Shown piece after piece: positions 40,938 to 59,113 of a stretch of DNA of 64,000 bases. The stretch spans positions 64,333 through 128,332 of the forward strand of contig PABP01000036.1 in assembly GCA_002699585.1 (NCBI GenBank). The letters run 5' to 3'. Under the pieces are notes generated by a model. It was not told where the DNA came from. It made no database searches and was given only the letters and a program-made list of their open reading frames with translations. Source of the DNA: Anaerolineaceae bacterium. Its GTDB lineage: Bacteria > Chloroflexota > Anaerolineae > Aggregatilineales > Phototrophicaceae. The translations under genes and the position numbers were made by a program. Positions within the stretch are counted from its first letter, which is position 1. Each line of letters starts with the position of its first letter.

Positions 40938-40949
40938 ATAAAAACGAAC

Positions 40950-44005: not shown

Positions 44006-44017
44006 TGAAATAACTTG
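43996..44017 (-). promoter_or_regulatory. ROK operator at the first permease gene
   Basis: TTTCATTCAATGAAATAACT followed by TG repeats with three mismatches the sequence at 45232-45253 just before the ROK gene (TTTCATTCAGTGAAGTAAGT then TG). The core TTCATTCAxTGAA is a palindrome. It covers the start of the permease gene. Confidence 0.7.
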
Positions 44018-44035
44018 CTCAAAAAAATACGTTCT

Positions 44036-45226
44036 TTAGGCGCTGGCCTTGGACGCGACCAGGGGCGATTCAAAGACTTTGCCAATCACCAGGCTGGCCG
44101 CCCCTCGGACCCAGGCCTGTTCGTCGGTGGGTTCGATGATGATTTCGACGCCCTCCGCCAGACCATCGAAGACGTAAGTCTGCATGGCCTCCATCATAGG
44201 CTTGAGGCGATAGTCACCTGCGATGAGTCCCTCGCCACTGATGATAATGAGCGGCGGGTGGAGCAGGTTAATCAGGGTGGCCAATCCGACACCCAGATAA
44301 TGGCCGCTATCGGCCAAAGCGGTAATAGCCGTTTCATCACCGGATTGGGCGCGTTCGAGCACATCTTCGAGGCGCTTGCCGGAGGCATCGCCATTGAAAG
44401 TGGCATCAATGACAGCGTGGTCGGCGGCATTGGCTTCTAGCGTACCTGCGCCTGCCCCATGCTGTTGTTCTTTATCCATGTTGACGATGATGTGACCGAT
44501 TTCACCAGCACCGCCACCCAATCCCTGATACAACTGCCCGGCCAGCATCATACCCATACCGATACCGCGCCCGACTGTAAAGACAACGAAATCTGCATGA
44601 AAGCGCCCGGCCCCAAACAGATACTCGCTGAGGGTGAGCGTATTGACATCGTTTTCTACGTAGGTGGGCAGGTTAATCTGGTCTTCTAGTAATTTGGCCA
44701 AGGGCAGGTTGCGCCAACCGGAATAGGGCGAATAGAGCACCGAACCCGTATGTGGGTCGACGACGCCCGCTACGCCGATACCGACGCCCAGCATCTTTTC
44801 TCTGGAGATGCCGCTGGCGCGGATGGCATCGTCGATGGCTTTAGTGACCTGCGCGATGGCATCCTGGCTGGTATTGCTCTTGATATGTCGATCTTCATGC
44901 TGAATGATGCGCGCTTCCATATCCGTGATGGCGCAGACGACGCGATCTTCCATGAGTTTGACGCCCACAGCATAGCCTGCACGCGGATTGAGCCGTAAGA
45001 AAGTCTGACGGCGGCCCCCGGTGAATTCGCTTTCGCCTGTTTCAAGCAGCCAGTTGTTATTGAGCAGATCAGTCGTGATCTGGGAAACAGCCCCAGTACT
45101 CAAGCCAGAGTACCCCACGAGTTGGGTCCGTGATAGTTGGCCTTCACGGCGGATGGCGTTAAGAATCAAGCTGCGATTCATCGCCTTGATGAGATTTCGG
45201 TTGCCGCGAATAAAGGACTGAGACAT
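44036..45226 (-). CDS. ROK-family transcriptional regulator
   Basis: A 396-aa repressor of the ROK (NagC/XylR/Mlc-like) family. An N-terminal winged helix at about 15-75 reads NAIRREGQLSRTQLVGYSGL and STGAVSQITTDLLNN. The sugar-kinase-like domain follows, with the phosphate loop GVGIGVAGVVDPHTG (about 148-162), the ENDVNTLTLSEYLFGAG stretch (about 193) and VFTVGRGIGMGMMLAGQLYQ. The four-residue zinc motif of some ROK members (CGxxGCxE) is not present: here GGGAGEIGHIIV is followed by GAGAGTLEAN. So this may be a zinc-less variant. It is the first gene of the importer operon it likely controls, and its operator lies at both ends of the gene. Confidence 0.92.
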   Translation of the reverse strand: MSQSFIRGNRNLIKAMNRSLILNAIRREGQLSRTQLVGYSGLSTGAVSQITTDLLNNNWLLETGESEFTGGRRQTFLRLNPRAGYAVGVKLMEDRVVCAITDMEARIIQHEDRHIKSNTSQDAIAQVTKAIDDAIRASGISREKMLGVGIGVAGVVDPHTGSVLYSPYSGWRNLPLAKLLEDQINLPTYVENDVNTLTLSEYLFGAGRFHADFVVFTVGRGIGMGMMLAGQLYQGLGGGAGEIGHIIVNMDKEQQHGAGAGTLEANAADHAVIDATFNGDASGKRLEDVLERAQSGDETAITALADSGHYLGVGLATLINLLHPPLIIISGEGLIAGDYRLKPMMEAMQTYVFDGLAEGVEIIIEPTDEQAWVRGAASLVIGKVFESPLVASKASA

Positions 45227-45358: not shown

Positions 45359-45409
45359 TTGACAAAAAGTCGCACTTGGTTATAATCTGTTTGAGAACGT
45401 TCTCATTAA
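45359..45409 (+). promoter_or_regulatory. Promoter and operator of the second LacI-type regulator
   Basis: TTGACA (45359-45364), 16-nt spacer, TATAAT (45381-45386), then TTGAGAACGTTCTCATTAA (45391-45409), a palindrome centred on AACGTT. The same box recurs at 46481-46498. The consensus promoter with an operator over the start point fits strong, repressible expression. Confidence 0.85.
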
Positions 45410-45426: not shown

Positions 45427-46443
45427 ATGGCGAAACGCCCGACAATCATTGACGTCGCAAAACTGGCTGGTGTCTCCAAAGCTACTGTTGGGCGCGTGAT
45501 TAACGGGCAGAACGATATTGTGAGCGAAGACACCCGCTCGCGCGTCATGCATGCCGTGAAACAGCTCGGCTATGAACGTAATGCGGTCGCTGGCAGTTTG
45601 CGGACGGATCGCACGTTTATGATCGCACTGGCGATACCGGACATCACCAACCCGTTCTGGCCAGAAGTGGCACGCGGGGTACAGGATGCCATTGAGGCAC
45701 AGGGTTATGCGACGGTGACAGTCAATACCGATTGGCAGCCGGAGCGTGAGCAAAAGTACCTGACAATGGTCCGGCGAAATCGGTTTGATGGCTTAATTGT
45801 GAACCCGATTGAGGCATCGCGCACGGATTTGTTGAATATACACATTCCGGTCGTGATCCTGGGCAGCGGGGGTTATTACCCTGATATGGACAGCGTCGGC
45901 AGCGATACAGCGGCTGGCGTGGACACTGCGCTGAATCATTTGCTGGAATTGGGCCATCGGCGCATCGCACTGATTACAGGGCGACCCTCGCGCAACAATA
46001 GAGTTCGGTCGCGGCATGATGCGTACGTGGCGTTCCATGCCAAACATAATTTGCAGATCAATCAAGATCTTATTATTGAAAAAGATTTTTCAGAGCACTC
46101 AGGTTACGAAGCAATGCACCAATTATTGCACTTAGACAATCCCCCAACGGCTGTTTTCGCAGCTAACGATATTCTGGCGATTGGCGCGCTAAAAGGGGCA
46201 CAGGCGCTGGATTGGCACGTCCCGGAAGATGTGTCTATTGTTGGGATGGATGATATTTACGCCGCCGCTACCACATCACCGTCACTAACGACCATCATAA
46301 AACCCAAGTACGAAACAGGCGTGAAAGCCGCTGAATATCTGTTAGCGCGCATGTCTGGAGACAACATCGACCAGGGGAGGCATATTCTTTTGCCTTGTGA
46401 ACTGGCCGTTCGTGGGTCAACGGCCCCACCCCGAGATATTTGA
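45427..46443 (+). CDS. LacI-family transcriptional regulator of the ADP-ribosylglycohydrolase operon
   Basis: A 338-aa LacI/GalR-type repressor. The helix-turn-helix is at about 6-26 (TIIDVAKLAGVSKATVGRVI), the hinge near 50-60 (NAVAGSLRT). The effector-binding core has IALAIPDITNPFWPEVARGV, GLIVNPIEASRTDLLNIHIP, HRRIALITGRPSRNNRVRSR, AVFAANDILAIGALKGAQAL and VSIVGMDDIYAAATTSPSLT. A matching palindrome before this gene and before the next one makes the target set clear: itself and the operon 46519-55682. The inducing ligand is probably a product of that pathway, such as a ribose-type sugar, by inference. Confidence 0.94.
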   Translation: MAKRPTIIDVAKLAGVSKATVGRVINGQNDIVSEDTRSRVMHAVKQLGYERNAVAGSLRTDRTFMIALAIPDITNPFWPEVARGVQDAIEAQGYATVTVNTDWQPEREQKYLTMVRRNRFDGLIVNPIEASRTDLLNIHIPVVILGSGGYYPDMDSVGSDTAAGVDTALNHLLELGHRRIALITGRPSRNNRVRSRHDAYVAFHAKHNLQINQDLIIEKDFSEHSGYEAMHQLLHLDNPPTAVFAANDILAIGALKGAQALDWHVPEDVSIVGMDDIYAAATTSPSLTTIIKPKYETGVKAAEYLLARMSGDNIDQGRHILLPCELAVRGSTAPPRDI

Positions 46444-46454
46444 AAATCGGATAC

Positions 46455-46475
46455 AGAAGACTTCGTCTTTTTTTG
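46455..46475 (+). terminator. Small intrinsic terminator after the LacI gene
   Basis: AAGAC-TTC-GTCTT with a T-run of seven. A short but complete hairpin 13 nt after the stop; it isolates the regulator from the operon that starts behind the next operator. Confidence 0.7.
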
Positions 46476-46480
46476 CCATC

Positions 46481-46498
46481 AATGAGAACGTTCTCATT
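46481..46498. promoter_or_regulatory. LacI operator before the ADP-ribosylglycohydrolase operon
   Basis: A perfect 18-bp palindrome, AATGAGAACGTTCTCATT, 20 nt before the ATG at 46519. It shares 17 of 18 bases with the box at 45391. Promoter boxes were not clear, since the terminator U-run overlaps where a -10 box would be. Confidence 0.85.
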
Positions 46499-46518
46499 AA
46501 GAACACTGAAAGCTTATT

Positions 46519-47505
46519 ATGTTGACAAAAAGAACGCTTACACAAGAAGAAAAAGCCAAATTAGTGGATCGTGCAAAGGGCTGTTTGCTCGGTCTGGCGG
46601 TCGGGGATGCCTTCGGTGACATTGGTCGTCACCAGGATTATCGGGCGCGGTATGGCATCGTGACCGACTTGCACGAGGGCGCACGCAGCACCGACGATAC
46701 CGAATTCGCCGTGCTGACGGCCCAAACCCTGATCGACTGCGGCGGCAACCTGACGACGGACGCCCTGCTGGCTGCTTGGCAAAAGTACATCATTGGCCAG
46801 GGCGGCATGTTCGACCGGGGCGGCAAGCCGTTATACGGAGCTGTCGCTAATTTAGAGCGCGGCATCCGTCCGCCGCTTTCTGGCAGCGATAACGTGCAAA
46901 ACAACGACGATGGTGCGGCCATGCGCATTGCCCCTATTGGCATCGTCTGTGCAGGCGACCCGGACCTGGCCGTCAAAATGGCCAAGATTGAGTCCGAAAT
47001 CAGCCATGAGCGCGATGGCATCTGGGCAGCGCAGGCGGTTGCCGCCAGCGTGGCAGTCGCCATGACGGGTGCATCGGTCGATGACATCATCCAGGCCGGG
47101 ATTGACGTTATCCCAGAAGATAGCTGGTTAGGCCGCGCAATGGCGCGAGCGATGGCCATCTGCGATGAAAACCCAGATATTCTCGATGCCTTCCAGCCTT
47201 TACACGAAGACCTCTGGACGCCGGTTCACTCGATGGCCGCAGAAGCCGTTCCCCAGGCGTATGCTGTCCTCAAGCTGACAAAAGGCGATTTTAAGACAGG
47301 CATGATCTGGTCGGGCAATTTTGGCCGCGATGCCGATACGATCAGTGCGTTAGTAGGGGCGATCTTAGGTGCGCTGCACGGTACGGCCGTAATACCACCC
47401 GCCTGGATCGAAAAAGTCGACCAGCCCGCAGGCGTTTGCCTGCACTTCGCCGCCGAAAAATCCATGCAGTCGCTGGCGGTGCAACTCGTCGACCTCATAA
47501 GTTAG
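46519..47505 (+). CDS. ADP-ribosylglycohydrolase-fold protein, copy 1
   Basis: A 328-aa all-helical protein of the ADP-ribosylglycohydrolase (DraG/ARH) family. Family members use two metal ions to cut ADP-ribose or other ribosyl bonds. The first metal motif is LLGLAVGDAFGDIG with STDDTEF (T58-T61), the second GNFGRDADTISALVGAILGA (about 266-285, D271 and D273). There is no signal peptide, so the protein is cytoplasmic. It is the first gene after the LacI operator and precedes the binding-protein gene by 65 nt. It is close to copy 2 (50725) in length and motif order. Given the importer, the substrate may be a taken-up ribosyl- or furanosyl-compound rather than protein ADP-ribose; this is inference. 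Confidence 0.9.
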   Translation: MLTKRTLTQEEKAKLVDRAKGCLLGLAVGDAFGDIGRHQDYRARYGIVTDLHEGARSTDDTEFAVLTAQTLIDCGGNLTTDALLAAWQKYIIGQGGMFDRGGKPLYGAVANLERGIRPPLSGSDNVQNNDDGAAMRIAPIGIVCAGDPDLAVKMAKIESEISHERDGIWAAQAVAASVAVAMTGASVDDIIQAGIDVIPEDSWLGRAMARAMAICDENPDILDAFQPLHEDLWTPVHSMAAEAVPQAYAVLKLTKGDFKTGMIWSGNFGRDADTISALVGAILGALHGTAVIPPAWIEKVDQPAGVCLHFAAEKSMQSLAVQLVDLIS

Positions 47506-47569
47506 GTAGTCCTGCATACGCGATTTGCGTGTGCTTATTTAATCTAAGTAGTGTTTTAGGAGAAAAATC

Positions 47570-48862
47570 ATGCGAGGAAAATCCAGATTTTTGGCCCTGA
47601 CGATGATTTTGTTGCTGGTGATGTCCCAACTTGGGAGCGCACTGGCACAGGATAGCGTCACAATCGAGTGGTGGAGCGTGGCAGGTAATGAACTGCCGCA
47701 GGAAGCACAAGAAGCCATCGTTACCGCATTTGAAGCCGAACACCCTGACATTCAGGTTAACCTGACCATCTTGCCGGAATCTGGCTACGACGAGCGCATG
47801 ACGACCACGCTTGGCGCGGGCGAAGGTGCCCCGGACGTCGCCCTGTTCTGGAATGCCAACTGGTACGCGCAGACGCTCGACCTGACCCCTTACCTGGAAG
47901 CTGACCCAGACCTAAGCCCCGAAGATTACTTCGAGAACTTCTGGATTAACTGGGCCACCTGGGGCGACAAGGTCGTCGGTTTGCCGTTGGGCGTCGGTGC
48001 GAACTTCGTGATGTACAACAAAGCTGTCTTTGATGAAGCTGGTGTGGACTACCCAACTGCTGACTGGACGCCTGAAGAGTACATCGAAGTTGCCAAAGCC
48101 GTGACCGATACAGAAGTCCGCCGCTGGGGTGGCGACCGTCCGCGTGGCCCATACCGCGCCATCTGGATGAACTACGGGGCCTTCCCTTATAGTGATGACA
48201 GCACAATGGTTGATGGTTACTTCAACAGTGAAGCCTCCATCGCCGCTTACGAATGGCTGTGGGACCTGGTCGACAGTGGTGCAACACCGACCCCGGCAGA
48301 CATCGAAATCCTGGGTACAGAAGGCACGGGTCCGATTGACCTGTTCCTGGCAGGCCGCTTGGCTATGGCTACCCTGAACCAGGGCCATATGCTCATCGCC
48401 GTGGACGAAGGCGTGGACTTCGGTATTGTCCCGGAACCGGGCTTTGTCGACAGCCAACGTTTCGTTAACGCCTGGTCACTGACCGCTTCTATCTGGAGTG
48501 GCACAGAAAATCCTGATGAAGCCTATGAATTCCTGAGCTTCTTCGCAGGGCCAGAAGGTCAACGCATCCTGATGGAACAGGGCACGCTGTTCCCGGCGCT
48601 GCCCGCCGTTTTGGATGAGTATGAAAATGCTGACACCGACTACGCGCAAGCCTTCTTCTCCGTGCTAGAAGACACACAGGTCGCTGAGTGGACCGCTGGA
48701 CATCCCTGCTGGCGTGGTGCTGTCATCCGCAGCGTCCAGGACGTTTGGGATCTGATCAACCTCGGTGAAATCAGCCGTGACGAAGTAACCACCACCATCA
48801 ATGACTATATTGACGAAGCGCAAGCTTCGCTCGAAGAGTGCACCCCGCGTCTGGGTGGCTAA
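47570..48862 (+). CDS. Sugar ABC transporter substrate-binding protein, ARH operon
   Basis: A 430-aa CUT1 binding protein. The signal peptide is MRGKSRFLALTMILLLVMSQ, cleaved near ALA-QDS. Mature-part marks: VTIEWWSVAGNELPQEAQEA, QVNLTILPESGYDERM, GEGAPDVALFWNANWYAQTL and the C-terminal IRSVQDVWDLINLGEISRDE. TTAGGAG lies 8 nt before the ATG. There are cysteines in the last third (HPCWRG and LEECTPR) that may form a disulfide, which is not usual for this family. It is in the middle of the LacI-controlled operon. Its ligand is unknown, and likely the key to the function of the four glycohydrolase genes. Confidence 0.93.
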   Translation: MRGKSRFLALTMILLLVMSQLGSALAQDSVTIEWWSVAGNELPQEAQEAIVTAFEAEHPDIQVNLTILPESGYDERMTTTLGAGEGAPDVALFWNANWYAQTLDLTPYLEADPDLSPEDYFENFWINWATWGDKVVGLPLGVGANFVMYNKAVFDEAGVDYPTADWTPEEYIEVAKAVTDTEVRRWGGDRPRGPYRAIWMNYGAFPYSDDSTMVDGYFNSEASIAAYEWLWDLVDSGATPTPADIEILGTEGTGPIDLFLAGRLAMATLNQGHMLIAVDEGVDFGIVPEPGFVDSQRFVNAWSLTASIWSGTENPDEAYEFLSFFAGPEGQRILMEQGTLFPALPAVLDEYENADTDYAQAFFSVLEDTQVAEWTAGHPCWRGAVIRSVQDVWDLINLGEISRDEVTTTINDYIDEAQASLEECTPRLGG

Positions 48863-48877
48863 TCTACATGTCATTTA

Positions 48878-48904
48878 AGAGCCGGGGCCCCGTGCCCTGG
48901 CTCT
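48878..48904 (+). terminator. Stem-loop between binding protein and permease, ARH operon
   Basis: AGAGCC and GGCTCT enclose a GGGGCCCC-rich inner part, 16 nt after the binding-protein stop and 22 nt before the permease start. No U-run follows, so it is likely an RNA stabiliser or attenuator. Confidence 0.65.
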
Positions 48905-48926
48905 CCCTTCTTGGAGCACACGACTT

Positions 48927-49832
48927 ATGTTGTCCACATGGCGTGCAATGAACCCGATGGCACGGCGCGAAGCATTGGAAGGTTATACGGCCCTGATACC
49001 CTGGGTGATCGGTTTCCTTATCTTCACGACTTTCCCCATCATCATGTCGATCTACCTGAGTTTTACGGAGTGGACCATCATCGAGCCGCCGACCTGGATC
49101 GGTCTGGCCAACTACGAGCGCATGTTCACCCGTGATCCGCTGTTCTGGCAGTCGCTGAAAGTGACGCTGCTGTTCGTCGCCTTTTCTTTACCGCTTAAGC
49201 TGGTATTGGGGCTGATGCTGGCGTTGCTGCTGAATATCAAAGTGCCGGGGATGAACTTCTTCCGCACAGTCTTTTACCTGCCTGCCGTGATTTCCGGCGT
49301 GGCGGTGGCGCTCATGTGGATGTGGCTGCTGCAACCGGATACAGGTGTCGCCAATACCCTGCTGGCGGCCATCGGCATCCAGGGACCGAACTGGTTCTGG
49401 GATCGAGACTGGGCGTTGCCTTCTGTGGCGCTAATGAGCATCTGGAAAGTTGGCGGCAGCGCGATCATTTATCTCGCTGGTTTGCAGAATATTCCGCCGC
49501 ACCTGTATGAAGCGGCAAAAATCGATGGGGCCAATCGCTGGCACAGCTTCTGGGGCATCACGCTACCCTTATTGACGCCGACTCTGTTCTTCCAACTATT
49601 GATTGAACTGATTGATTCTTTCAAGGTCTTTACAGAAGCCTTCGTTATTACACAGGGTGGGCCATTAAAAGCCACATACTTTTACCTGTATTACTTCTAT
49701 GAAGAGGGCTTCCGCAACTTCAATATGGGGTATGCATCGGGGCTGGCACTCGTCCTGGTGGTCATCATCATCCTGATTACCGTTTTCTTAAACTTTACAT
49801 CTAAGCGGTGGGTTTATTATGAATCAGACTAA
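48927..49832 (+). CDS. Sugar ABC transporter permease, MalF/UgpA type, ARH operon
   Basis: A 301-aa permease. The first membrane segment is at about 19-42 (ALIPWVIGFLIFTTFPIIMS). The docking loop is HLYEAAKIDGANRWHSFWGI then TLPLLTP. CTTGGAGC lies before the ATG. It overlaps the next permease by 14 nt, as in the ROK-controlled importer, and the two ends (RWVYYESD and RWVYYEVE) are alike. Confidence 0.95.
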   Translation: MLSTWRAMNPMARREALEGYTALIPWVIGFLIFTTFPIIMSIYLSFTEWTIIEPPTWIGLANYERMFTRDPLFWQSLKVTLLFVAFSLPLKLVLGLMLALLLNIKVPGMNFFRTVFYLPAVISGVAVALMWMWLLQPDTGVANTLLAAIGIQGPNWFWDRDWALPSVALMSIWKVGGSAIIYLAGLQNIPPHLYEAAKIDGANRWHSFWGITLPLLTPTLFFQLLIELIDSFKVFTEAFVITQGGPLKATYFYLYYFYEEGFRNFNMGYASGLALVLVVIIILITVFLNFTSKRWVYYESD

Positions 49833-50721
49833 TCCCGCACTTGCCCAACCAGCGCACAACAAACGCAAAAACAACGACGGTATCGACTGGCAGCGCGTCC
49901 AACGCTGGGTCGGCACGGCCCTGGTTTATGTGTTGATGACCACTCTAGCGCTCATCTTCATGATTCCGCTGCTATGGATGCTATCGACCTCGCTCAAGAC
50001 GCGCCCAGAAATTTTCGCGTGGCCGCCGGAATGGGTCCCAGCTGTGCCGCAGTGGGGCAATTATGCCGATGCCTTCAACAGCTACCCGCTGGGGCGCTTT
50101 ATGGCCAACAGCATGATCCTGGTGATTGGCAATACGATTGGCGAACTGGTTTCTGTGCCGTTGATCGCCTATGCCTTCGCGCGGCTGCGCTTCCCTGGCA
50201 AGTCGATTTTGTTTGTGCTGATGCTCAGCCCGATGATGATTCCCGGCCATATTCGCCTGATCCCGCTGTACTCGGCCTATTTGCGCCTGGATATGGTCGG
50301 TACCTATTGGCCGCTGATTTTGCCATCGTTCTTCGGCAACCCGTTTTTCATCTTCCTGATGGTGCAGTATATGCGCACGATTCCGCGAGATTTGGATGAA
50401 GCCGCCCGCATCGACGGGGCCGGAACGTGGACCATTCTGTACCGGATCATTCTGCCGCTGTGTATCCCTGCGCTGACGATCATCGTGGTGTTCACCTTCC
50501 TGTGGACCTGGAACGACTTCTTGCAGCCTTTGATTTACCTATCGGACTTCGAGACATATCCGATCTCGGTGGGGTTGGCCTTCTTCCAGGGGCGCTACAG
50601 TGTGGAATGGAATATGTTCATGGCGGCGACGTTGATTTCGATCTTGCCGATCCTGGTGTTGTACTTCTTCGCCCAGAAGCAGCTCATCGGCGGTCTATCG
50701 ACACTGGGCCTGAAAGGTTAG
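49819..50721 (+). CDS. Sugar ABC transporter permease, MalG type, ARH operon
   Basis: A 300-aa permease with a charged N-terminal tail (NKRKNNDGIDWQRVQRWVGT) before the first membrane segment at about 34-56. The docking loop is DLDEAARIDGAGTWTILYRI then ILPLCIP. The C-terminus KQLIGGLSTLGLKG is typical. It is followed 3 nt later by copy 2 of the ADP-ribosylglycohydrolase genes, so import and hydrolysis are tightly linked. Confidence 0.95.
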   Translation: MNQTNPALAQPAHNKRKNNDGIDWQRVQRWVGTALVYVLMTTLALIFMIPLLWMLSTSLKTRPEIFAWPPEWVPAVPQWGNYADAFNSYPLGRFMANSMILVIGNTIGELVSVPLIAYAFARLRFPGKSILFVLMLSPMMIPGHIRLIPLYSAYLRLDMVGTYWPLILPSFFGNPFFIFLMVQYMRTIPRDLDEAARIDGAGTWTILYRIILPLCIPALTIIVVFTFLWTWNDFLQPLIYLSDFETYPISVGLAFFQGRYSVEWNMFMAATLISILPILVLYFFAQKQLIGGLSTLGLKG

Positions 50722-50724
50722 TCC

Positions 50725-51711
50725 ATGCAACTTGAATCCCTGCGCGACAAAGCGCGTGGCAGTCTGCTGGGGGCGGCCATCGGTGATGCGATGGGTGCGC
50801 CCTGCGAGGGCATGAGCGCCCAGGCCATCCGCGAGCAGTACGGCGTGATTACCGATTTCCTGACCGATGAAATCAGTGGGACGGATGATACCGACTTCAC
50901 GCTGTTCAACGCGCATATCTTGCAGACATACGGCGTCAAGGTGACGTCCGAGCAGATCGAATATGAATGGCGCGATAAGCTGCTGAGTGGCAAATACTAC
51001 TATCGGCCCGGTGGCTTCAGCGATGTGATTTCCACGCGCAACCTGGAAGCGGGTTTGCAGCCGCCACAGTCGGGCGCGTTTAATCATCAAATGTGGAGCG
51101 ATGGGGTGGCGATGGCCATCAGCGCGGCAGGGATTGCCTGCCCTGGCGACCCGGCCCAGGCGGCGCAGGTCGCCCATAAGCTGGGCAGCATTTCCAATGC
51201 GCGTGATGGCATTTACACGGCGCAAGCAGTAGCCGCTGCCATCAGCATGGCGATGGTGGATGCCACGCCCATTGATATGATCGAAGCAGCGCTGGCCAAT
51301 GTGCCGCAAGATAGCTGGACCTATCGGGCGATGCTGCGCGCGCAGCAAGTCGCTAAAGATGCCGCCGACCTGGAAGAAGCGCTCATATTGGCTGATGAAC
51401 GGCTGGTGGTGCATTACTGGCCCTGGGCTGACTTGACAACCGAAGCGGTCCCGGTGGCGTTTGCCGTTTTCCTGGCAGCGCAAGGCGAGTTCGTCAAAGC
51501 GGTCCCGGCAGGGGTCCGCATTGGCCGTGATGCCGATACGATTGGCGCGATTGTCGGCTGTTTGGCCGGGGCCTATGGCGGCACAGAGGCGATCCCGCAA
51601 GAGTGGCGCGAGCGCGTGCAGGCATCGACCGGGCGCTGCATTGGCTATGTGGCCAATCGCCAGATTACGGACATCGCGGATGAACTGGTAAAGAAGGCGA
51701 CGAACGCATGA
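50725..51711 (+). CDS. ADP-ribosylglycohydrolase-fold protein, copy 2
   Basis: A 328-aa ARH-fold protein. The first metal motif is LLGAAIGDAMGAPCEGM with GTDDTDF (T53-T56), the second VRIGRDADTIGAIVGCLAGA. Both metal sites look intact. The N-terminal glutamate usual after GDAxG is present here (CEG), while copy 1 has DIG instead. AAAGG lies before the ATG. The start is 3 nt after the permease stop, and the stop overlaps the next gene by 4 nt. It likely acts in the cytoplasm on the imported compound. Confidence 0.9.
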   Translation: MQLESLRDKARGSLLGAAIGDAMGAPCEGMSAQAIREQYGVITDFLTDEISGTDDTDFTLFNAHILQTYGVKVTSEQIEYEWRDKLLSGKYYYRPGGFSDVISTRNLEAGLQPPQSGAFNHQMWSDGVAMAISAAGIACPGDPAQAAQVAHKLGSISNARDGIYTAQAVAAAISMAMVDATPIDMIEAALANVPQDSWTYRAMLRAQQVAKDAADLEEALILADERLVVHYWPWADLTTEAVPVAFAVFLAAQGEFVKAVPAGVRIGRDADTIGAIVGCLAGAYGGTEAIPQEWRERVQASTGRCIGYVANRQITDIADELVKKATNA

Positions 51712-52772
51712 CCAAGCCACACTCGACGGATTTACGCAGCCGATTTTTAGGGGCCATGTACGGGCTGGCTTATGGCGATGCCATCAGCTTCCCGGCCTTG
51801 TTTCATCGCTTTCAGTCGTCAGGAATTCCCCGGCGGCGTCACAATTTTTTATGGCGAGAAAATGGCGACCTGGATAACAAAAACATCACACGCCTGATGC
51901 TGCCCTTCACACATCGGATGGCGGCCAGCAATCTGGAACCCTCGCCGACCGATGACACCGAATTCGCCCTATTGAGCCTGAAAGCGCTGCTTAACGAGAA
52001 GGAAAGCCCGACTCAGGCGACGTTTGTGCGCATCTGGCAGGATGAGGTGCTGCCGCACGCCGATGAGGTCCGCAGCAGCTTTTCCGAGCGCTCGGCGATT
52101 GAGAACTTCAAGATGGGGTTACAGCCCCCGGCGACCGGTAATGACAATCCGCTGCATTACGAAGACAGCGCTGTAGCGCGGGCGGTACCGATTGGGCTGT
52201 TCTGCGCCGGGTCGCCAGAGAAGGCAGCAGAATTGGCCGCGCTCGATGCGCAGATCACGCAGGCGGAAGATGGTATTTATGCCGCCCAGGGGATGGCAGC
52301 GGCTATCGCGGTGCTGGCAGGTGGTGGCCCACTGACAGAAGCACTCCAACAAGCACGGGCACAGTTCCCGGCGGATAGCTGGATTGCTCACGGCGATCAA
52401 AAGGCGCGAGAAGCACTCGCCCAGGCGGAGAGGCCGCAGGATATGGCGCTGCTGCTATCGAAAAGTGTCATCAACACGGTGTATTCGTATGGCTCGGCAG
52501 CACCAGAGACCTTCCCGGCAGCGCTGGCGATTGTCGAAGCGTGTGATGGCGACCTGCAAACAGCTTGTTCTGTGGCTAATGCGATTGCCAAATCCGCTGA
52601 TTCAGTCCCGGCGATGGTCGGGGCGCTCTGTGGCTGCTACCAGGGCGTGGATGTCATCAGCCCCATGTGGCGCGATGCCTTATCGACCTGCCGCGGATTG
52701 TGCTTACCGTCAATGGAAGGGGCCAATCTGGAAGAACTGACCCTGCAATTATTGGCGCAAGTCCCGGATTGA
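51708..52772 (+). CDS. ADP-ribosylglycohydrolase-fold protein, copy 3, degenerate C-terminal site
   Basis: A 354-aa ARH-fold protein. The N-terminal metal motif PTDDTEF (T81-T84) is intact, though the preceding loop is longer by about 25 residues and rich in Arg, Asn and His (PRRRHNFLWRENGDLDNKNI). The C-terminal motif reads ANAIAKSADSVPAMVGALCG, where the other copies have GRDADTI: the first Asp of that pair is replaced by Ser and the Thr by Ser. So one metal ion may be bound weakly or not at all. It may be a non-catalytic partner of copy 2, to which it is joined by a 4-nt ATGA overlap, or it may have changed its chemistry. Confidence 0.88.
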   Translation: MTKPHSTDLRSRFLGAMYGLAYGDAISFPALFHRFQSSGIPRRRHNFLWRENGDLDNKNITRLMLPFTHRMAASNLEPSPTDDTEFALLSLKALLNEKESPTQATFVRIWQDEVLPHADEVRSSFSERSAIENFKMGLQPPATGNDNPLHYEDSAVARAVPIGLFCAGSPEKAAELAALDAQITQAEDGIYAAQGMAAAIAVLAGGGPLTEALQQARAQFPADSWIAHGDQKAREALAQAERPQDMALLLSKSVINTVYSYGSAAPETFPAALAIVEACDGDLQTACSVANAIAKSADSVPAMVGALCGCYQGVDVISPMWRDALSTCRGLCLPSMEGANLEELTLQLLAQVPD

Positions 52773-53566
52773 TGGCTGTTTTTATGTCATACGCTGTGGG
52801 TCCGACACCGTTTTTCCATTGTCAAGCTGATGCACGCTTCGCATACTGTCTGCATGTGCCAGCTTCCCCACAAACGCTATGCGTCTATGTACATGGCACG
52901 GAACGTGATGCCAGCCATTACCGCGATCATCTGCGGGCCTTTGCTGAGAAAAACCAGGTCCTGATTGTCGCGCCGCTGTTCCCAGCGGGCCTATACGACG
53001 CGCAGGACTTAGATAACTACAAGTATCTGTTGTATCAGGGCGTGCGCTATGACCATGTGCTACTGAGTATGCTCGACGAGGTGCACTCGACGTATCACAT
53101 TGGCGAAGATCGTTTTTTGCTAGGTGGATTTTCCGGCGGGGCGCAGTTCGCCCAACGCTTCACTTATTTGCACCCAGAGCGCTTACGCGCCGTGTCATTG
53201 GCTGCACCAGGGCGCGTCACCCTGTTGGATGACCGTTTTGACTGGTGGCCAGGGACGCGCAACGTCAAAGCGCTGTTTGGGCAACGTATCGACATGACCG
53301 CCTTGCGCACTGTTCCGGTGCAGTTGGTCATCGGCAAGCAGGACAACGAAGATATTACTATCAAGAAAGGCAATCGCTATTGGGCAGATGGGGCAAATCA
53401 AGCGGGTACAACCCGTCTTGAGCGCAGTCAGGCGCTTTATCACCACTACCAGCAGCAAAGCATCCCGGTACACTATTCCACAGTTGATGACTGTGGCCAT
53501 GAGTGGCTACCGTTGATGCCACCGATTCTTGACTTCTATCAGAGTATCTTAAAAGAACCTGCATAA
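52772..53566 (+). CDS. Alpha/beta hydrolase
   Basis: A 264-aa serine hydrolase started at ATG 52772, where TGATG makes the end of copy 3 and this start overlap by one base. An in-frame start inside copy 3 exists but is unlikely. The fold marks are VYVHGTERDASHYRDHL (oxyanion region about 38-54), LLGGFSGGAQFAQRF with nucleophile S121, VIGKQDNED with acid D191, and DDCGHEWLP with H243. The nucleophile elbow is GFSGG rather than GxSxG with a basic residue. It might cleave an ester (acetyl or feruloyl type) from the imported glycoside. No signal peptide, so cytoplasmic. Confidence 0.88.
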   Translation: MAVFMSYAVGPTPFFHCQADARFAYCLHVPASPQTLCVYVHGTERDASHYRDHLRAFAEKNQVLIVAPLFPAGLYDAQDLDNYKYLLYQGVRYDHVLLSMLDEVHSTYHIGEDRFLLGGFSGGAQFAQRFTYLHPERLRAVSLAAPGRVTLLDDRFDWWPGTRNVKALFGQRIDMTALRTVPVQLVIGKQDNEDITIKKGNRYWADGANQAGTTRLERSQALYHHYQQQSIPVHYSTVDDCGHEWLPLMPPILDFYQSILKEPA

Positions 53567-53576
53567 AGGAACACAC

Positions 53577-55682
53577 ATGAGCAACCCTTCACTGCCTATG
53601 GATTACGAACAGCGCGTGTATGCCGGATGGCTGGGTAAATGCATCGGCGTGCGATTTGGTGCCCCCATCGAAAACTGGACCTACGAAGAGATCAAACAAA
53701 ACCTGGGTGAGTTGGAGACCTATATCGGTGAAGACCCGCATAAGGTGTTCAAACCTGATGACGACACCAATGTGCCTATGATTTTCATCCGCGCCTTTGA
53801 AGACTTTGATGTGGGCGGCGACATCACGCCACAACAGGTCGCTGATACGCTGCTGAACTACATCGGCGATGAGCACGGCACATTCTGGTGGGGCGGCTAC
53901 GGCATGTCCACCGAACATACGGCCTATCTCAATCTGGCTAATGGCATCCCTGCACCCCGTTCGGGGTCGATTGCCCAGAATGGCGCGACCGTCGCTGAGC
54001 AAATCGGTGGCCAGATCTTTAGCGACATCTGGGGGCTGATCGCACCGAATAACCCCAAGCTGGCAGCCGATATGGCCGAAGCCGCGGCTTCTGTGTCGCA
54101 TGGGGGCAATGGCGTCTATGGCGGACGCTTCGTGGCGGCGCTGGTCAGTGCGGCTTTTTCCGAGAGCGACCCCCGTCGCCTTATTGAAATTGCGCTGGAA
54201 CAAGTGCCCGATGGCAGCGACTATCAGCGCGTCATCCAGGCGATGCTTGATTATCACGCGGACCAGCCGGATGACTGGCACGCCGCTTTCGCCCATCTGA
54301 AAGCCAATTTTGGCTATGATCGCTATGGTGGCCTGGTGCATATCATCCCCAACGCCGGGGTGATCGCCCTGGGCTTGCTGTATGGCGAAGGTGATTTTTC
54401 CAAGACGATTGCCATCACCAATATGTGCGGTTGGGATACCGACTGCAATGTCGGCAATGTGGGCGCGATCATGGGTGTGGCCGTGGGTGTGGATGGCATC
54501 GAAAGCAAATGGCGTGCGCCAATCAACGATCTGCTGATTGCAACGGGCGTCATCGGTACGCGCGACCTGATGACCCTACCGCAATGCACCGATTTGCTGG
54601 TCAAGGTCGGCCATAAGCTGGCGGGTGAAGCGCCGATAGCACCGCGCCCACGCTACCACTTCGCCTATCCGGGCAGCACGAATAACTTCCTGGCGGAGGG
54701 CATTGGCCGGGGCCGACCGATCCACTTAGGGCAAAAACTGGTCGATAGCGAACCCACCCTGCAAATGGCTATCCGCAAGCTGAACAAAAAAGGCGAAGTT
54801 CGCCTGTCAACACGCACGTTTTACCGTCCCTCGGAACTGAGCAGCAATTACTATGGCGCGGAGTTCACGCCGCTGATTTTCCCAGGTCAGACGATTACGG
54901 CGACGGTATATCTACCGGATGACGCGCCGGAAACGCTGAAAGCGGGCCTGTTCGTGCGCGATGACAATCACAATGCGATCTATCAGGCGACGGGTGAAGA
55001 TTTGCAGCCGGGACAGTGGCATACATTGACCTATACGGTGCCAGAACTGACCGATGCTTGTCTATCGGAAGTGGGCATCGTGCTACGGAACGTCGGCCCA
55101 GAATGGACAGTCGGGTCTATCTGCCTGGGGACGCTGGATTGGGAGGGTACGCCCAACTGGACGACGACCTTCGCTAAGGAGCGCCGGATAACGGATACGA
55201 TCAGCCAGTGGACGCGGTTGCGCGGCTATTGGCGGCTGGAAGATGGCGCTTGCGCGGGCAGCGGCATCGGCAAAAGTGAACTGTATACGGGTGATGTCAC
55301 CTGGACGGATTATGCGGTCGAAGCTGACGTTGTGCCCGTCATTGGCGATCATCACTATATCAATGTGCGCGTCCAGGGGGCGCTGCGCAGCTATGCTTTT
55401 GGGCTAGCACCCGACAACACGGTTGCGCTCTACAAGAACGATAAGGGCTACAGCGAAGTCGCTACTGCCCCATTCGACTGGTCCGAGGGGGAAACCTACA
55501 CGCTGGCGGTCCAGACCAACGGCGACACGCTGATGGCGACTGTGACCGATGCGAAGGGTCAGTCGCAATCGCTGACGTGGCAGGATGAGGAGCAGGCTTA
55601 TCTGCATGGTCAGATCGGGTTGAGTACCTGGGATGGCAGCCACACGCGCTATCTGCGGGTCCGTGTACAGCCGCTTGATTAG
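53577..55682 (+). CDS. ADP-ribosylglycohydrolase-fold protein, copy 4, with C-terminal beta domains
   Basis: A 701-aa protein with three parts. Residues 1-360 are an ARH domain of a different branch: VYAGWLGKCIGVRFGAPIEN, KPDDDTNVPMIF (D61-T64) and NMCGWDTDCNVGNVGAIMGV (about 281-300), a CGWDTDCN form of the second metal motif. Residues about 380-540 are a jelly-roll-like region (STRTFYRPSELSSNYYGAEF). Residues about 540-701 look like a concanavalin-type sandwich (GYWRLEDGACAGSGIGKSEL, then HYINVRVQG, then QIGLSTWDGSHTRYLRVRVQ). AAAGGAAC lies before the ATG. No signal peptide is seen, so a sugar-binding role would have to be cytoplasmic unless export is non-classical. It is the last gene of the operon. 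Confidence 0.88.
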   Translation: MSNPSLPMDYEQRVYAGWLGKCIGVRFGAPIENWTYEEIKQNLGELETYIGEDPHKVFKPDDDTNVPMIFIRAFEDFDVGGDITPQQVADTLLNYIGDEHGTFWWGGYGMSTEHTAYLNLANGIPAPRSGSIAQNGATVAEQIGGQIFSDIWGLIAPNNPKLAADMAEAAASVSHGGNGVYGGRFVAALVSAAFSESDPRRLIEIALEQVPDGSDYQRVIQAMLDYHADQPDDWHAAFAHLKANFGYDRYGGLVHIIPNAGVIALGLLYGEGDFSKTIAITNMCGWDTDCNVGNVGAIMGVAVGVDGIESKWRAPINDLLIATGVIGTRDLMTLPQCTDLLVKVGHKLAGEAPIAPRPRYHFAYPGSTNNFLAEGIGRGRPIHLGQKLVDSEPTLQMAIRKLNKKGEVRLSTRTFYRPSELSSNYYGAEFTPLIFPGQTITATVYLPDDAPETLKAGLFVRDDNHNAIYQATGEDLQPGQWHTLTYTVPELTDACLSEVGIVLRNVGPEWTVGSICLGTLDWEGTPNWTTTFAKERRITDTISQWTRLRGYWRLEDGACAGSGIGKSELYTGDVTWTDYAVEADVVPVIGDHHYINVRVQGALRSYAFGLAPDNTVALYKNDKGYSEVATAPFDWSEGETYTLAVQTNGDTLMATVTDAKGQSQSLTWQDEEQAYLHGQIGLSTWDGSHTRYLRVRVQPLD

Positions 55683-55719
55683 GATGTAGCCATCGAACAA
55701 TGGCCATTTTGTGAACGAA

Positions 55720-55832
55720 ACCCCACCCCTAAATCCCCTCCCCATGAGGTGAGGGGACTTGTGCCTGCTATCAGATAATGCAGAAAGGTATCCTTCCACC
55801 TCATGGGGGAAGGACCGAGGATAGGGGTCTAG
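55720..55832 (-). repeat. Dispersed intergenic repeat, copy C
   Basis: A full-length copy in reverse orientation. On the minus strand it starts CTAGACCCCTATCCTCGG, goes through CATGAGGTGGAAGGAT, ACCTTTCTGC and GCAGGCACAAGTCCCCTCAC, and ends ATTTAGGGGTGGGG. Both halves fold into hairpins (CCCCTC..GAGGGG; CCTTCCACC..GGGGGAAGG). It fills most of the gap between the ARH operon and the citrate lyase genes. Confidence 0.78.
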
Positions 55833-55877
55833 AAAACATGCGATTAAGAGACATACAGTCAAAAGAAGTGATCGAAC

Positions 55878-57404
55878 ATGGCACGTTTACATGAATATCA
55901 GGGCAAGGCGATTTTTGCGCAGTATGGCCTAACGATTCCGCAGGGGCGGGTGGCGACAAGCGCCGAAGAAGCCCGCGACATCGCCAGCGAAATAAATGCT
56001 CCCGTTGTGGTCAAAGCGCAGATATGGGTGACAGGCCGCGCAGGTAAGGGATTGGTTCAGTTCGCTGAAACGCCGGACCAAGCATACAAGGCAGCGGCAA
56101 GCCTGCTGGGTAAGCAGGTCGATAACTTTACGATTGAGCGCGTTATGGTCGAGCAGCAGGTAGCCTTCGACCGTGAGTTTTACCTGGGCCTGATTATTGA
56201 TGATCGGGAACGGGCACCCGTTGTGATTTTCAGCAGCGTGGGCGGCACGGGCATTGAGGACATCGCGCGGGAACACCCCGGCAAACTAGCACGGCATACG
56301 GTCGATATTCGCTATGGGCTGCGCGATTTTGAAGCGCGTGACTTATGTCGACGGGTAGGCATCAACGGCAAGCTGATGATGCAGCTCAGCAAGACCATGC
56401 TGAATTTTTATGCCGCCGCGCGCGGCATGGAAGCGCGTTCCGCTGAAATCAACCCGCTGGTGTTCACTGAGGCGGGTGAGCTGATAGCCGTCGATGCCCG
56501 TTTCACCGTCGATGATTACGCCGTTTTCCGGCACAAAGAGCTGGACGTGGAGATCGCGCGTGAGTTCGACCGTCCGCCGACCCCGCTGGAGAAAATCGCC
56601 TGGGACATCGAGAAAAACGACTATCGCGGCACGTTCTACTTCATCCAGATGGAAACCGATTTTCAGAAGGGCGACGGTGTCATCGGCTTTCATGGAGCGG
56701 GCGGTGGCGGCAGCATGATGAACATGGATGCCCTGCTGCGGCACGGCTTCAAGATTGCAAACTTCGTCGATACCAGCGGCAACCCTCCGGCCAGCAAAGT
56801 CTATCGGGCAGCGCGGATTATCCTCAGCCAGCAAGGCATCGACGGTTACTATGCGGGGGGCAGCGGTGTCGCCAGCCAGGAGCAATTTCACTCGGCGCGA
56901 GGGCTGGTCAAAGCCTTCATGGACGCCCAACTGAATGTCCCCGGCGTCATCCGGCTGGGGGGCAATGCGGAAGAATACGCCATCGAGATTCTGGAACGGG
57001 CCAATGGCAGCTTCCCCGCACCCGTCAAAGGCTATGGGCGCGATGATGCCCCCGACTTTTGTGCGCAGCAGCTTGAAAACATGATCGAGCAGTATGAGCC
57101 GGTTGCTGACCCTGCCCCGCGTGATGTACCGGAGGCTGAAGAACCCTACAGCTTTGAGACAGTGACAGGCGGCACGGTGACGTTCGACCATGCCCGCTGC
57201 CGGGATTGTGAGAGCAAAATTTGCATTGAAACGTGCGTACCCAAGATTCTCTCGCTGGAGGGGGATGTCCCAGTGCTGAACATCGGCCAGGATGCCGCCA
57301 AACGCGGCGGATGCACGGAATGTCTGGCGTGTGAAGTTGAGTGCCATTTCCTGGGGAACAAGGGCGGGTTTATCCAACTGCCAATAGAAGGGCTGGATCG
57401 CTAA
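55878..57404 (+). CDS. ATP-citrate-lyase/succinyl-CoA-synthetase-like small subunit with C-terminal ferredoxin-like domain
   Basis: A 508-aa protein. Residues 1-230 form an ATP-grasp domain (LHEYQGKAIFAQYGLTIPQG, VVVKAQIWVTGRAGKG, the EINPLVF metal site at 190-196). Residues 235-380 are a flavodoxin-like CoA-ligase domain (GAGGGGSMMNMDALL, VDTSGNPPASKVYRAARI). This matches the small subunit of ATP citrate lyase or SucC. Beyond residue 430 is an extra 75-residue domain with eight cysteines: C441, C444, C449, C453 and C479, C482, C485, C489 (the last four spaced CxxCxxCxxxC). This could hold two iron-sulfur clusters, like FixX-type ferredoxins. The next gene, overlapping by one base, is the large subunit. 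The extra domain suggests coupling to electron transfer. Confidence 0.88.
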   Translation: MARLHEYQGKAIFAQYGLTIPQGRVATSAEEARDIASEINAPVVVKAQIWVTGRAGKGLVQFAETPDQAYKAAASLLGKQVDNFTIERVMVEQQVAFDREFYLGLIIDDRERAPVVIFSSVGGTGIEDIAREHPGKLARHTVDIRYGLRDFEARDLCRRVGINGKLMMQLSKTMLNFYAAARGMEARSAEINPLVFTEAGELIAVDARFTVDDYAVFRHKELDVEIAREFDRPPTPLEKIAWDIEKNDYRGTFYFIQMETDFQKGDGVIGFHGAGGGGSMMNMDALLRHGFKIANFVDTSGNPPASKVYRAARIILSQQGIDGYYAGGSGVASQEQFHSARGLVKAFMDAQLNVPGVIRLGGNAEEYAIEILERANGSFPAPVKGYGRDDAPDFCAQQLENMIEQYEPVADPAPRDVPEAEEPYSFETVTGGTVTFDHARCRDCESKICIETCVPKILSLEGDVPVLNIGQDAAKRGGCTECLACEVECHFLGNKGGFIQLPIEGLDR

Positions 57405-59113
57405 TGGCCATATTGATCGATGAAACCAAGCGCGTGATCGTGCAGGGCATCACCGGGCGCGAAGGCATGGCCCGTACCCGTCTGATGCAGGGTTATGGCA
57501 CGCAGGTTGTCGGCGGGGTGACACCGGGTAAAGGCGGCCAGATGGTCGAAGGTGTGCCCGTATTCGATACCGTCGCCGAAGCCTGGGATACGCTCGGCCC
57601 GATAGACATCAGCGTGCTCTTTATTCCCGCGCCGCTGGTGAGCAACGCAGCCATCGAAGCGCTGGATGCAGGTGTCAAGCTGCTGGTGATCGTGCCGGAC
57701 CGTGTGCCCATATATGACGTACTGGAAATCGCGGCTTTCGCTGAGGAAAAAGACGCGGCTTTCATTGGGCCGAACACGCTCGGCCTGCTCAGTCCGGGCA
57801 AAGGCGTGCTGGGGATGATGGGCGGCCAAGCCAGCAGCGCCCGCGACTGGTTTTTCCCAGGGCCAGTGGGCATCACCAGCCGCAGCGGTGGCATCACCAC
57901 CAGTATCGCCTACTACCTGGCACAGGCGGGACTGGGCGCTTCGACGGTGGTGCATGTGGGCGGCGATGCAGTCATTGGGATGCCGCATGCGCGGGTGCTC
58001 AAGCACTTTGAAGCTGACCCGCAGACCGAAGTCGTGGTCATGTTCGGGGAAATTGGCACATCGCAGGAAGAAGAAGCGGCTGATCTGATCGAACGTGGCG
58101 AATTCACTAAGCCGCTGGTGGCCTATATCGGCGGCAAAGCAGCCAAAGAAGGCACCCGCTTCAGTCATGCCGGGGCCATCATCGAAGGTGGGCGCGGCAC
58201 ACATGAAGGCAAGGTCAAGCGGCTGCGCGAAGTCGGTGCGACGATTGTGGATGCCTTCGATGATATTCCCAGAGTCACGGGCGAAGTACTGGAAAAGCAT
58301 CGTAAAACGCACAGCCAGCGCGTGTCGTCATCGACTATAGAGAAAAAAGCCACCAGCGAATTGCATTGGACCACCGCCATCACCGACATTCAGCCGGGGA
58401 GCATTCGGCTGCGCGGGCATGACATCACCGAACTCATGGACGACCTAACCTTCAGCCAGACGATTTATCTGCTGCTGACCGGGGAAATGCCCTCACAACA
58501 AGTAGGCCAGGTGCTGGATGCTATCCTGGTATCTTCCATCGATCATGGGGCGACACCCCCTTCGACCCTGGCCGCACGAACTGCTGCCAGCACAGGCGCA
58601 CCGATCAACGCGGCGCTGTCGGCGGGGCTGCTGAGCATCAATCAGCATCATGGTGGGGCGATTGAAGCCTGTATGCGCGTGATTTTGGAAGCGCAACACC
58701 TTGCAGAAACAGAATCCTTAACTGCGGAAGACGCCGCTAATCAGCTTGTGGCAGCCTATAAAGCCGAGAAAAAACGGCTGCCAGGGTTTGGTCATCGGGT
58801 GCATGCGACCGACCCACGCGCGGTACGTTTGTTCGCGATTGCGGATGAAGCAGGCATCGCGGGGGAAGGTGTCGGCATGGTACGGGCGCTAGAGACGGCA
58901 CTGAATGCCAGCAGCAGCAAACACCTACCGATCAATGTTGATGGGGCGATTGCCGCCCTACTGGTTGACCTGGGTATTCCGGCAGAACTGGGCAACACGT
59001 TTTTCATGATGGCACGGGTGCCGGGGCTGGTGAGCCACATTTACGAAGAAAAGACCCATCAGCGACCCATGCGCAAAATTCACCCGACTGATCACAGCTA
59101 CGATGGTCCGTAG
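57404..59113 (+). CDS. ATP-citrate-lyase-like large subunit (CoA-ligase plus citrate synthase-like domain)
   Basis: A 569-aa protein started at ATG 57404, within the TAATG that ends the previous gene. Residues 1-300 are SucD-like: LIDETKRVIVQGITGREGMA, GVTPGKGGQ, and the phosphohistidine region RFSHAGAII with H255. Residues about 320-569 are a citrate synthase/citryl-CoA lyase domain: LHWTTAITDIQPGSIRLRGH, histidine H381 in IDHGATPPS, H464 in GFGHRVHATDP and acid D513 region NVDGAI. All expected catalytic groups are visible. It would cleave citrate (or a close analogue) to acetyl-CoA and oxaloacetate with ATP and CoA. ATP citrate lyase is known in the reductive TCA cycle and in supplying acetyl-CoA for biosynthesis. 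Other acyl-CoA substrates remain possible. Confidence 0.87.
   Translation: MAILIDETKRVIVQGITGREGMARTRLMQGYGTQVVGGVTPGKGGQMVEGVPVFDTVAEAWDTLGPIDISVLFIPAPLVSNAAIEALDAGVKLLVIVPDRVPIYDVLEIAAFAEEKDAAFIGPNTLGLLSPGKGVLGMMGGQASSARDWFFPGPVGITSRSGGITTSIAYYLAQAGLGASTVVHVGGDAVIGMPHARVLKHFEADPQTEVVVMFGEIGTSQEEEAADLIERGEFTKPLVAYIGGKAAKEGTRFSHAGAIIEGGRGTHEGKVKRLREVGATIVDAFDDIPRVTGEVLEKHRKTHSQRVSSSTIEKKATSELHWTTAITDIQPGSIRLRGHDITELMDDLTFSQTIYLLLTGEMPSQQVGQVLDAILVSSIDHGATPPSTLAARTAASTGAPINAALSAGLLSINQHHGGAIEACMRVILEAQHLAETESLTAEDAANQLVAAYKAEKKRLPGFGHRVHATDPRAVRLFAIADEAGIAGEGVGMVRALETALNASSSKHLPINVDGAIAALLVDLGIPAELGNTFFMMARVPGLVSHIYEEKTHQRPMRKIHPTDHSYDGP

Follow-up and report, generated by a model that had tools for sequence, protein, structure and literature searches.

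A LacI-controlled sugar-import operon of Anaerolineae with four ADP-ribosylglycohydrolase-fold genes and predicted citrate-splitting enzymes: candidate genes for the use of a ribose- and citrate-containing compound

Introduction

What might explain why a bacterium keeps four ADP-ribosylglycohydrolase (ARH)-fold genes in a sugar-import operon and follows them with enzymes predicted to split citrate? The window, the whole 64,000-nucleotide stretch of DNA analyzed here (G000:C5:64333-128332), comes from a 6.7 Mb Anaerolineae assembly. It contains, all on the plus strand and in this order, genes for a LacI-family repressor, ARH1, a solute-binding protein, ABC (ATP-binding cassette) permeases A and B, ARH2, ARH3, an alpha/beta hydrolase and ARH4, followed by the ligase and lyase genes that we call ACLb and ACLa. 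A preliminary description, made from the sequence alone, had listed the genes from LacI to ARH4 with overlaps or short gaps between them. That order and its coordinates are correct, and the order is conserved in relatives and is hence not due to chance. The listed genes do form part of the operon, but the description ended it at 55682, two genes early, and so overlooked ACLb and ACLa, the best clue to the substrate. Judged from gene content and its conservation, there is about an even chance that the operon, under LacI control, serves to break down a compound taken up from outside in which citrate is combined with at least one furanosyl unit of the ribose type.

Results

ACLb (55878-57404, plus strand) encodes an ATP-grasp, succinyl-coenzyme A (CoA)-synthetase-beta-like subunit with an eight-cysteine, ferredoxin-like tail (PF08442, 171 bits), and ACLa (57404-59113, plus strand) encodes a succinyl-CoA-synthetase-alpha-like ligase fused to a citryl-CoA lyase domain (PF02629, PF00549, PF00285). 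The start of ACLa overlaps the stop of ACLb by 1 nt (TAATG). Both genes very probably belong to the operon, extending it beyond 55682. Among 98 sampled genomes of the window's own family, ARH4 (at least 60% identity) and a full-length-type ACLb (best piece at least 62%) occur in the same 14 genomes, the window included, and they adjoin each other in all 14 (window, L014, L038-L049). Some of these copies are fragmentary: L038 retains just the first 50 ACLb residues at a contig end, L048 has ACLb in two pieces, and G096 and G002 have a partial ACLb beside ARH4 with more ACLb sequence on another contig. ACLa follows ACLb in 10 of the 14 loci, the other contigs ending before it. Measured in 13 loci, the distance from ARH4 to ACLb lies between -4 and 17 nt in 11 and is 154 nt in L041 and 195 nt in the window, whose long gap is the exception. 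By eye, the gap (55683-55877) holds an imperfect inverted repeat that resembles a small inserted repeat element.

The window lyase domain passes three NCBIfam citryl-CoA lyase cut-offs (score/cut-off in bits: NF004866, 254.7/245; NF004869, 247.2/212; NF004868, 198.1/193) and does not reach three other models of this kind; the lyase domain of the sister locus L227 is likewise above three curated citryl-CoA lyase subfamily cut-offs. For both domains the closest solved match is the citryl-CoA lyase 6hxp. In an alignment of 20 rows, from 22 loci requested, the catalytic His, His and Asp and two Arg are kept wherever they are covered. By analogy with citrate synthase, we take the first three to be catalytic and the arginines, equivalents of Arg329 and Arg401, to bind the oxaloacetate part. 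The CoA-ligase parts of ACLb and ACLa fall below the succinate-CoA ligase cut-offs, and their best scores are still against succinyl-CoA synthetases. A plain succinyl-CoA synthetase at 55878-59113 was considered and is ruled out by the fused citrate-synthase domain together with those sub-cut-off scores. The best reading of the pair, as predicted from these comparisons, is ATP- and CoA-dependent activation and cleavage of citrate.

The preliminary description had suggested a survey of the gene set in other genomes, and the operon type indeed recurs both in its own family and in other Anaerolineae families. When ARH1 was searched for in 298 class genomes (E 1e-25), 25 had matches; identity is 59-100% in 18 of them, and 14 of these 18 lie outside the family. 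Lower-identity matches in G303, G323 and G333 lie outside the loci compared. In a phylum sample of 400 genomes (E 1e-45), the four ARH1 matches were all within the class. With G302 and G227 not assessable, their contigs ending early, 12 LacI/ARH1 operons outside the family can be judged, and 11 of these have a citrate-cleaving set. The sets are not the window's own. Six operons (G231, G127, G212, G113, G248, G325) encode CitF and a CitD-CitE fusion, and five (G178, G191, G380, G153, G332) encode an ADP-forming acyl-CoA synthetase, an ATP-grasp protein and a citryl-CoA-lyase-type protein. The five include G332, whose contig stops short of a lyase gene, and the six include G325, in which LacI-ARH1 and CitDE-CitF stand on different contigs and are taken as one operon by inference; leaving G325 aside gives 10 of 11. 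In G287, CitF led to one more ARH4 operon with CitDE-CitF (L269). The CitF-family proteins of the sister operons are above the Pfam cut-off (PF04223) and are accompanied by CitD- and CitE-family domains; the CitD-CitE fusions of L219, L222, L228, L229, L231 and L234 keep a Ser-Asp site.

Three enzyme sets thus occupy one operon slot. The ACL pair and CitDE/CitF also replace each other in a second setting. In L112, without ARHs, an ACL pair stands beside aconitase-family genes and a relative of isocitrate/homoisocitrate dehydrogenase, and L113 and L115 show the same setting by sequence clustering; in L263 it is CitDE/CitF that stands beside aconitase-family genes and an isocitrate/isopropylmalate dehydrogenase-family gene. 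The L112 operon also includes an HD-domain gene. That both sets adjoin relatives of aconitase and isocitrate dehydrogenase in Chloroflexota is in keeping with citrate as their substrate, and the exchange of unrelated sets in two settings is best explained by a common reaction.

Could the released acid instead be an analogue, such as 2-methylcitrate, an alkylcitrate, hydroxycitrate or citramalate, with the rest of the pathway unchanged? Citrate-synthase-type enzymes vary in the acyl part they accept, the CoA-ligase parts of the window pair miss the succinate-CoA ligase cut-offs, and the L228 proteins miss the citrate lyase equivalog cut-offs (CitF 477.9/501.45, CitE 253.8/443.4, CitD 38.5/63.5 bits), a shortfall that also counts against citrate itself. 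However, the alternative operons carry the CitF family, the lyase domains pass citryl-CoA lyase cut-offs, and the Arg329 and Arg401 equivalents are kept in all covered rows, which speaks against citramalate. We consider an analogue improbable.

In a control set of 27 other ARH loci from the window's own genome and family, among which 15 have permease matches, no citrate enzyme occurs. CitF is above the Pfam cut-off in 15 of the 298 class genomes and lies within ARH operons in seven; of the eight loci outside ARH operons, seven (all except G147) were compared with these transporter genes and none shows a match, although the contigs of four are shorter than 9 kb. Given 18 genomes with ARH1 and 15 with CitF out of 298, the chance of at least six shared genomes is 7e-5, uncorrected for kinship. 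Chance neighborhood was considered as an explanation and is ruled out by the co-occurrence, adjacency and control counts.

Several observations nevertheless weigh against import of a citrate-containing compound. G251 has the operon and its operators, but no citrate enzyme on the contig, and no citrate gene was found in the stretches read of G340, G139 and G260, whose ARH1 matches are of lower identity. A different small ARH, at 27% identity, occupies the ARH1 slot in G011 and G287, and L110 has ARH1, ARH2, ARH3 and the ACL pair without ARH4. The 195-nt gap in the window could hold a promoter of ACLb's own. ACLb also occurs without ARHs. Verrucomicrobia and Phycisphaerales have it in this form, as do L112, L113 and L115 and the Anaerolineae metagenome-assembled genome locus L108, where ACLb (69% identity) has no other gene of the operon within 21.5 kb. 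For this reason we regard the ACL pair as a general enzyme that was recruited to the operon and is not bound to it. The short contig of G118, another genome with a lower-identity ARH1 match, has ARH2, ARH3 and ARH4 and no citrate gene. ARH-free ACLb/ACLa pairs make up the loci L116-L154, from many Verrucomicrobia and some Phycisphaerales, and most cysteines of the ACLb tail are lost in the rows compared from these two groups.

These ARH-free occurrences bear on the main rival, in which an ordinary ribosyl or furanosyl compound is imported and the citrate enzymes are co-regulated to act on the cell's own citrate, for acetyl-CoA supply or overflow. ATP-citrate lyases supply acetyl-CoA in other organisms; the ACL pair without ARHs in Verrucomicrobia, its position in some Chloroflexota next to relatives of aconitase and isocitrate dehydrogenase, and the lone ACLb of L108 would all suit such a role, as would ARH/importer/ribokinase operons of Agrobacterium and Deinococcus that lack citrate genes. 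It is harder to reconcile with the finding that one operon type, whose operator is local to it, recurs with three different citrate-cleaving sets, with the absence of such sets from all 27 other ARH loci, importer-associated or not, and with the seven CitF loci compared outside ARH operons, which lack matches to these transporter genes. We consider use of internal citrate unlikely, though a serious possibility.

The CitF operons raise a further question, that of the prosthetic group of citrate lyase. CitG (PF01874) was found in none of 16 genomes searched, six of them with CitF, and CitX (PF03802) in none of the six CitF genomes, so the CitF-type citrate lyase may not be activated classically; in these genomes the prosthetic group must come by another route or be absent. 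This belongs with the difficulties listed above, and it would fit a scheme in which the target of the ARHs is an alpha-ribosyl bond in a molecule of the ADP-ribose or prosthetic-group type, such as the phosphoribosyl dephospho-CoA group of citrate lyase, the link to citrate being one of regulation or maturation. ARH relatives cleave alpha-ribosyl bonds, and the prosthetic group contains such a bond. Yet no acyl-carrier gene is seen in the operons with the ACL pair or the acyl-CoA synthetase set, which keep the ARHs and the importer all the same, and we regard this scheme as very improbable. The preliminary description had offered an ADP-ribose-derived substrate as an example, and nothing found points to ADP-ribose itself.

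How many kinds of ARH protein does the operon encode? All four pass PF03747, with 143-185 bits against a cut-off of 26.2, and the four ARH-fold genes of the preliminary description stand as a matter of fold; ARH3, with an altered metal site, is better left out of the tally of ordinary enzymes. ARH1 (46519-47505, plus strand; 170 bits) has intact STDDT and GRDADT motifs, ARH2 (50725-51711, plus strand; 177 bits) has GTDDT and GRDADT, and ARH4 (53577-55682, plus strand; 185 bits), in which the ARH domain (residues 17-309) is followed by C-terminal beta-sandwich modules, has DDDT and WDTDC. TDDT-like and DxDT/DTDC-like motifs are presumably the two halves of the ARH two-metal site, and both halves are present in ARH1, ARH2 and ARH4, not in ARH3. 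ARH3 (51708-52772, plus strand; 143 bits) has KSADS where GRDADT is usual, i.e., the C-terminal metal motif is lost. Conservation follows the same division: both motifs are found in 27/27 ARH1 rows at 48% identity or more and in 12/12 ARH2 rows; ARH4 has WDTDC in 25/25 covered rows and DDDT in 22/24; and ARH3 has K[SA]ADS in 11/11 covered rows, 12 having been aligned. ARH2 and ARH3 occur together in all 12 genomes where either was seen. Because K[SA]ADS is conserved and the two always co-occur, ARH3 may be a partner of ARH2 and, given its altered site, something other than an ordinary hydrolase.

By phylogenetic analysis the four ARHs form long-separated groups and are not recent copies of one another. 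In a tree of 71 rows, ARH1, ARH2 and ARH3 each lie with their orthologues on one side of a supported branch (95-100% ultrafast bootstrap), and recent tandem duplication, considered as an origin for the four genes, is rejected on this ground. The ARH4 group is likewise set apart from the other three groups, though with ungrouped rows inside it; several distant rows drew long-branch warnings. A tandem array of four ARH4-like genes exists elsewhere, in L069 (G088:C69). None of the window ARHs reaches the equivalog cut-off for DraG (best 60.9 bits against 337.05) or Tri1 (best 59.9 against 490). The predicted model of ARH1 (predicted local distance difference test, pLDDT, 84) has its best Foldseek matches to structures of MJ1187, DraG, Tri1 and ARH3. 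The ARH4 model is poor (mean pLDDT 57), and the likeness of its beta-sandwich modules to CBM66 in this low-confidence model is a hint only; CBM66 binds fructofuranose.

The pointers to ribose come from relatives. Ribokinases above the TIGR02152 cut-off (299.65 bits) are encoded in the sister operons of G231 (363.9 bits) and G113 (315.2 bits), the latter missing a second ribokinase model. A nucleoside-hydrolase-family gene is present in the G178 and G380 operons and, by tblastn, in the G118 ARH locus. Outside the phylum, a ribokinase is annotated in the LacI/importer/ARH operons of Deinococcus aetherius and Agrobacterium, with none listed in Nitratireductor, and a Paracoccus plasmid carries an ARH, a PfkB kinase and ABC genes. 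LacI-controlled import of a ribosyl or furanosyl compound, as the preliminary description proposed, is probable in the light of the sister-operon ribokinases and nucleoside-hydrolase-type genes.

An ester group removed by a hydrolase, also part of that proposal, is plausible, an esterase-type gene recurring in relatives. A PF00756 esterase follows ACLa in eight of the ten own-family loci where that place is seen, the window and L039 being without it, and a relative lies inside the L222 operon. The L040 esterase has a signal-peptide-like start by eye and is putatively secreted. In its place the window has a different alpha/beta hydrolase, esterase-like (52772-53566, plus strand), whose best start is the ATG at 52772 in a TGATG overlap with the end of ARH3. 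The protein matches no Pfam family at 0.001; its matches to polyhydroxyalkanoate-depolymerase-type esterases are all below the NCBIfam cut-offs, and relatives at 45-49% identity occur in L042 and L043.

The importer is of the CUT1 type, with an SBP_bac_1 binding protein (47570-48862, plus strand; PF01547, 97 bits) and two MalF/MalG-type permeases. Permease A (48927-49832, plus strand; PF00528) is MalF/UgpA-like, its NCBIfam UgpA-like match being below cut-off, and permease B (49819-50721, plus strand; PF00528) is MalG/UgpE-like, with a GlcU/UgpE-like match also below cut-off. The N-terminus of the binding protein is signal-peptide-like by eye. Its closest solved structures are sugar-binding or related proteins for various sugars, from which the substrate cannot be deduced. 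No ABC ATPase was found among the genes scanned from 45427 to 59113, the rest of the genome not being searched for one, and the importer presumably uses a shared ATPase encoded elsewhere. From LacI to ARH4 the intergenic distances are -14 to 75 nt, permeases A and B overlapping by 14 nt and ARH2 and ARH3 by 4 nt.

The repressor gene (45427-46443, plus strand; PF00356 and PF13377) is flanked by two copies of a predicted LacI operator, the exact 14-base palindrome TGAGAACGTTCTCA, at 45392-45405 and at 46483-46496, the second preceding ARH1. The whole assembly has no further exact copy. The first is directly downstream of a sigma-70-type promoter (TTGACA-16-TATAAT, 45359-45386, plus strand) with 12/12 consensus matches; the promoter scan as such is not enriched (7 sites against 7.9 in shuffles), its other sites scoring 9/12. 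Among 28 genomes searched, TGAGAACGTTCTCA or the variant TGGGAACGTTCCCA is at the operon in 25, and the pattern TGRGAACGTTCYCA is present in 27, compared with two for the reversed pattern as a control. A wider LacI regulon was considered and rejected, the exact operator being nowhere outside the operon in G000. In G027 (C306) and G046 (C1156) the sole operator site is away from operon genes, as is a third site in G011 (C209). The C306 stretch of G027 has a LacI-like gene and importer genes at 24-38% identity, and its site, at 7535 (L299), matches the operator pattern exactly and lies in another sugar-import region, which contains two further LacI-like genes.

Two neighborhoods may be recorded here. 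Divergent from the window operon lies another (37488-45226, minus strand), which, judged by eye from translations, is also a sugar operon, with two glycosidase-like genes, a binding protein, two permeases and a ROK-type regulator. Beside the ARH2-ARH3-ARH4 genes of L232 (4724-8761, minus strand) are genes for a cytidylyltransferase-family protein, a dihydrodipicolinate-synthase-family aldolase and a BNR propeller, together with one that weakly matches UbiD; the combination is reminiscent of nonulosonic acid metabolism. Beta-propeller genes (BNR, Kelch), for which the ribose-citrate proposal has no part, occur in some sister operons.

Discussion

How might such an operon work? An esterase, the putative secreted one in sister operons or the alpha/beta hydrolase in the window, would trim the compound, which the binding protein and two permeases would import with an ATPase encoded elsewhere. 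ARH1 and ARH4 would hydrolyze the furanosyl bonds, joined in operons that have them by ARH2 and its presumed partner ARH3. The freed ribose-type sugar would be phosphorylated by ribokinase, in some relatives encoded in the operon, and ACLb/ACLa would use ATP and CoA to activate the released citrate and would cleave it into acetyl-CoA and oxaloacetate. The gene content and order, their conservation, the operators, the catalytic residues of the lyase, the metal motifs of three ARHs and the exchange of three enzyme sets are direct observations; the release of citrate from an imported compound, ribosidase action of the ARHs on that compound and all substrate assignments we infer from them.

In its full form, the proposal is that several Anaerolineae families feed on an unrecognized and fairly common natural ribosyl-citrate, whether ester, glycoside or oligomer, with ARH-fold ribosidases and an ARH3 partner, citrate being consumed by whichever of the three recruited sets is present. 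We put this forward tentatively, as somewhat short of an even chance. Against import of a ribose- and citrate-containing compound in general stand the absence of a ribokinase from the window operon and the compound itself: we know of no natural ribosyl-citrate, and a literature search turned up none.

If the proposal is true, ADP-ribosylhydrolase-fold proteins gain a carbohydrate-catabolic role with ribose and citrate as the product pair, and a hitherto undescribed environmental metabolite is predicted. Three enzyme sets in one operon slot are an unusually clear genomic pointer to a product. ARH4-type operons are also found on plasmids of Agrobacterium, Nitratireductor and Deinococcus, and the answer may help to re-annotate genes whose present names refer to a reaction that may not be theirs.

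No description of these genes in combination was found in the literature searched, most subscription journals being outside its coverage, and the parts seen of PMC10434189, PMC11833690, PMC4431377 and PMC3482391 do not treat the gene set. The closest systems are the plasmid operons of Deinococcus, Agrobacterium and Nitratireductor, which likewise have LacI, two permeases, a binding protein, a smaller ARH and an ARH4-type protein of about 700 residues that is 34-37% identical to ARH4 of the window. We know of no functional test of these plasmid operons. They differ in having no citrate-cleaving genes in the stretches read, an annotated ribokinase in two of three, and a UgpC ATPase in two of three where the window operon has none. 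An ARH with a sugar importer and a ribokinase is therefore found in other bacteria, and that part alone is not new. The yegTUV operon of E. coli and the rus ribose operon of Bacteroides thetaiotaomicron also include an ARH-family protein among genes for nucleoside or ribose use, but presumably have other transporters, one ARH and no citrate enzymes. Compared with DraG, ARH1 and ARH3 ADP-ribosylhydrolases, the window proteins share the fold and, in three of four, the metal motifs, but their genomic setting is a sugar importer. The citrate lyase CitDEF shares CitF, CitD and CitE with the sister operons, in which CitD is instead fused to CitE. Finally, the ATP-citrate lyase and the citryl-CoA synthetase and lyase of the reductive tricarboxylic acid cycle (6hxj, 6hxq, 6hxp) consist of the same kinds of ligase and lyase domains as ACLb and ACLa, but the window pair resides in a sugar-import operon and its beta-like subunit carries an eight-cysteine tail.

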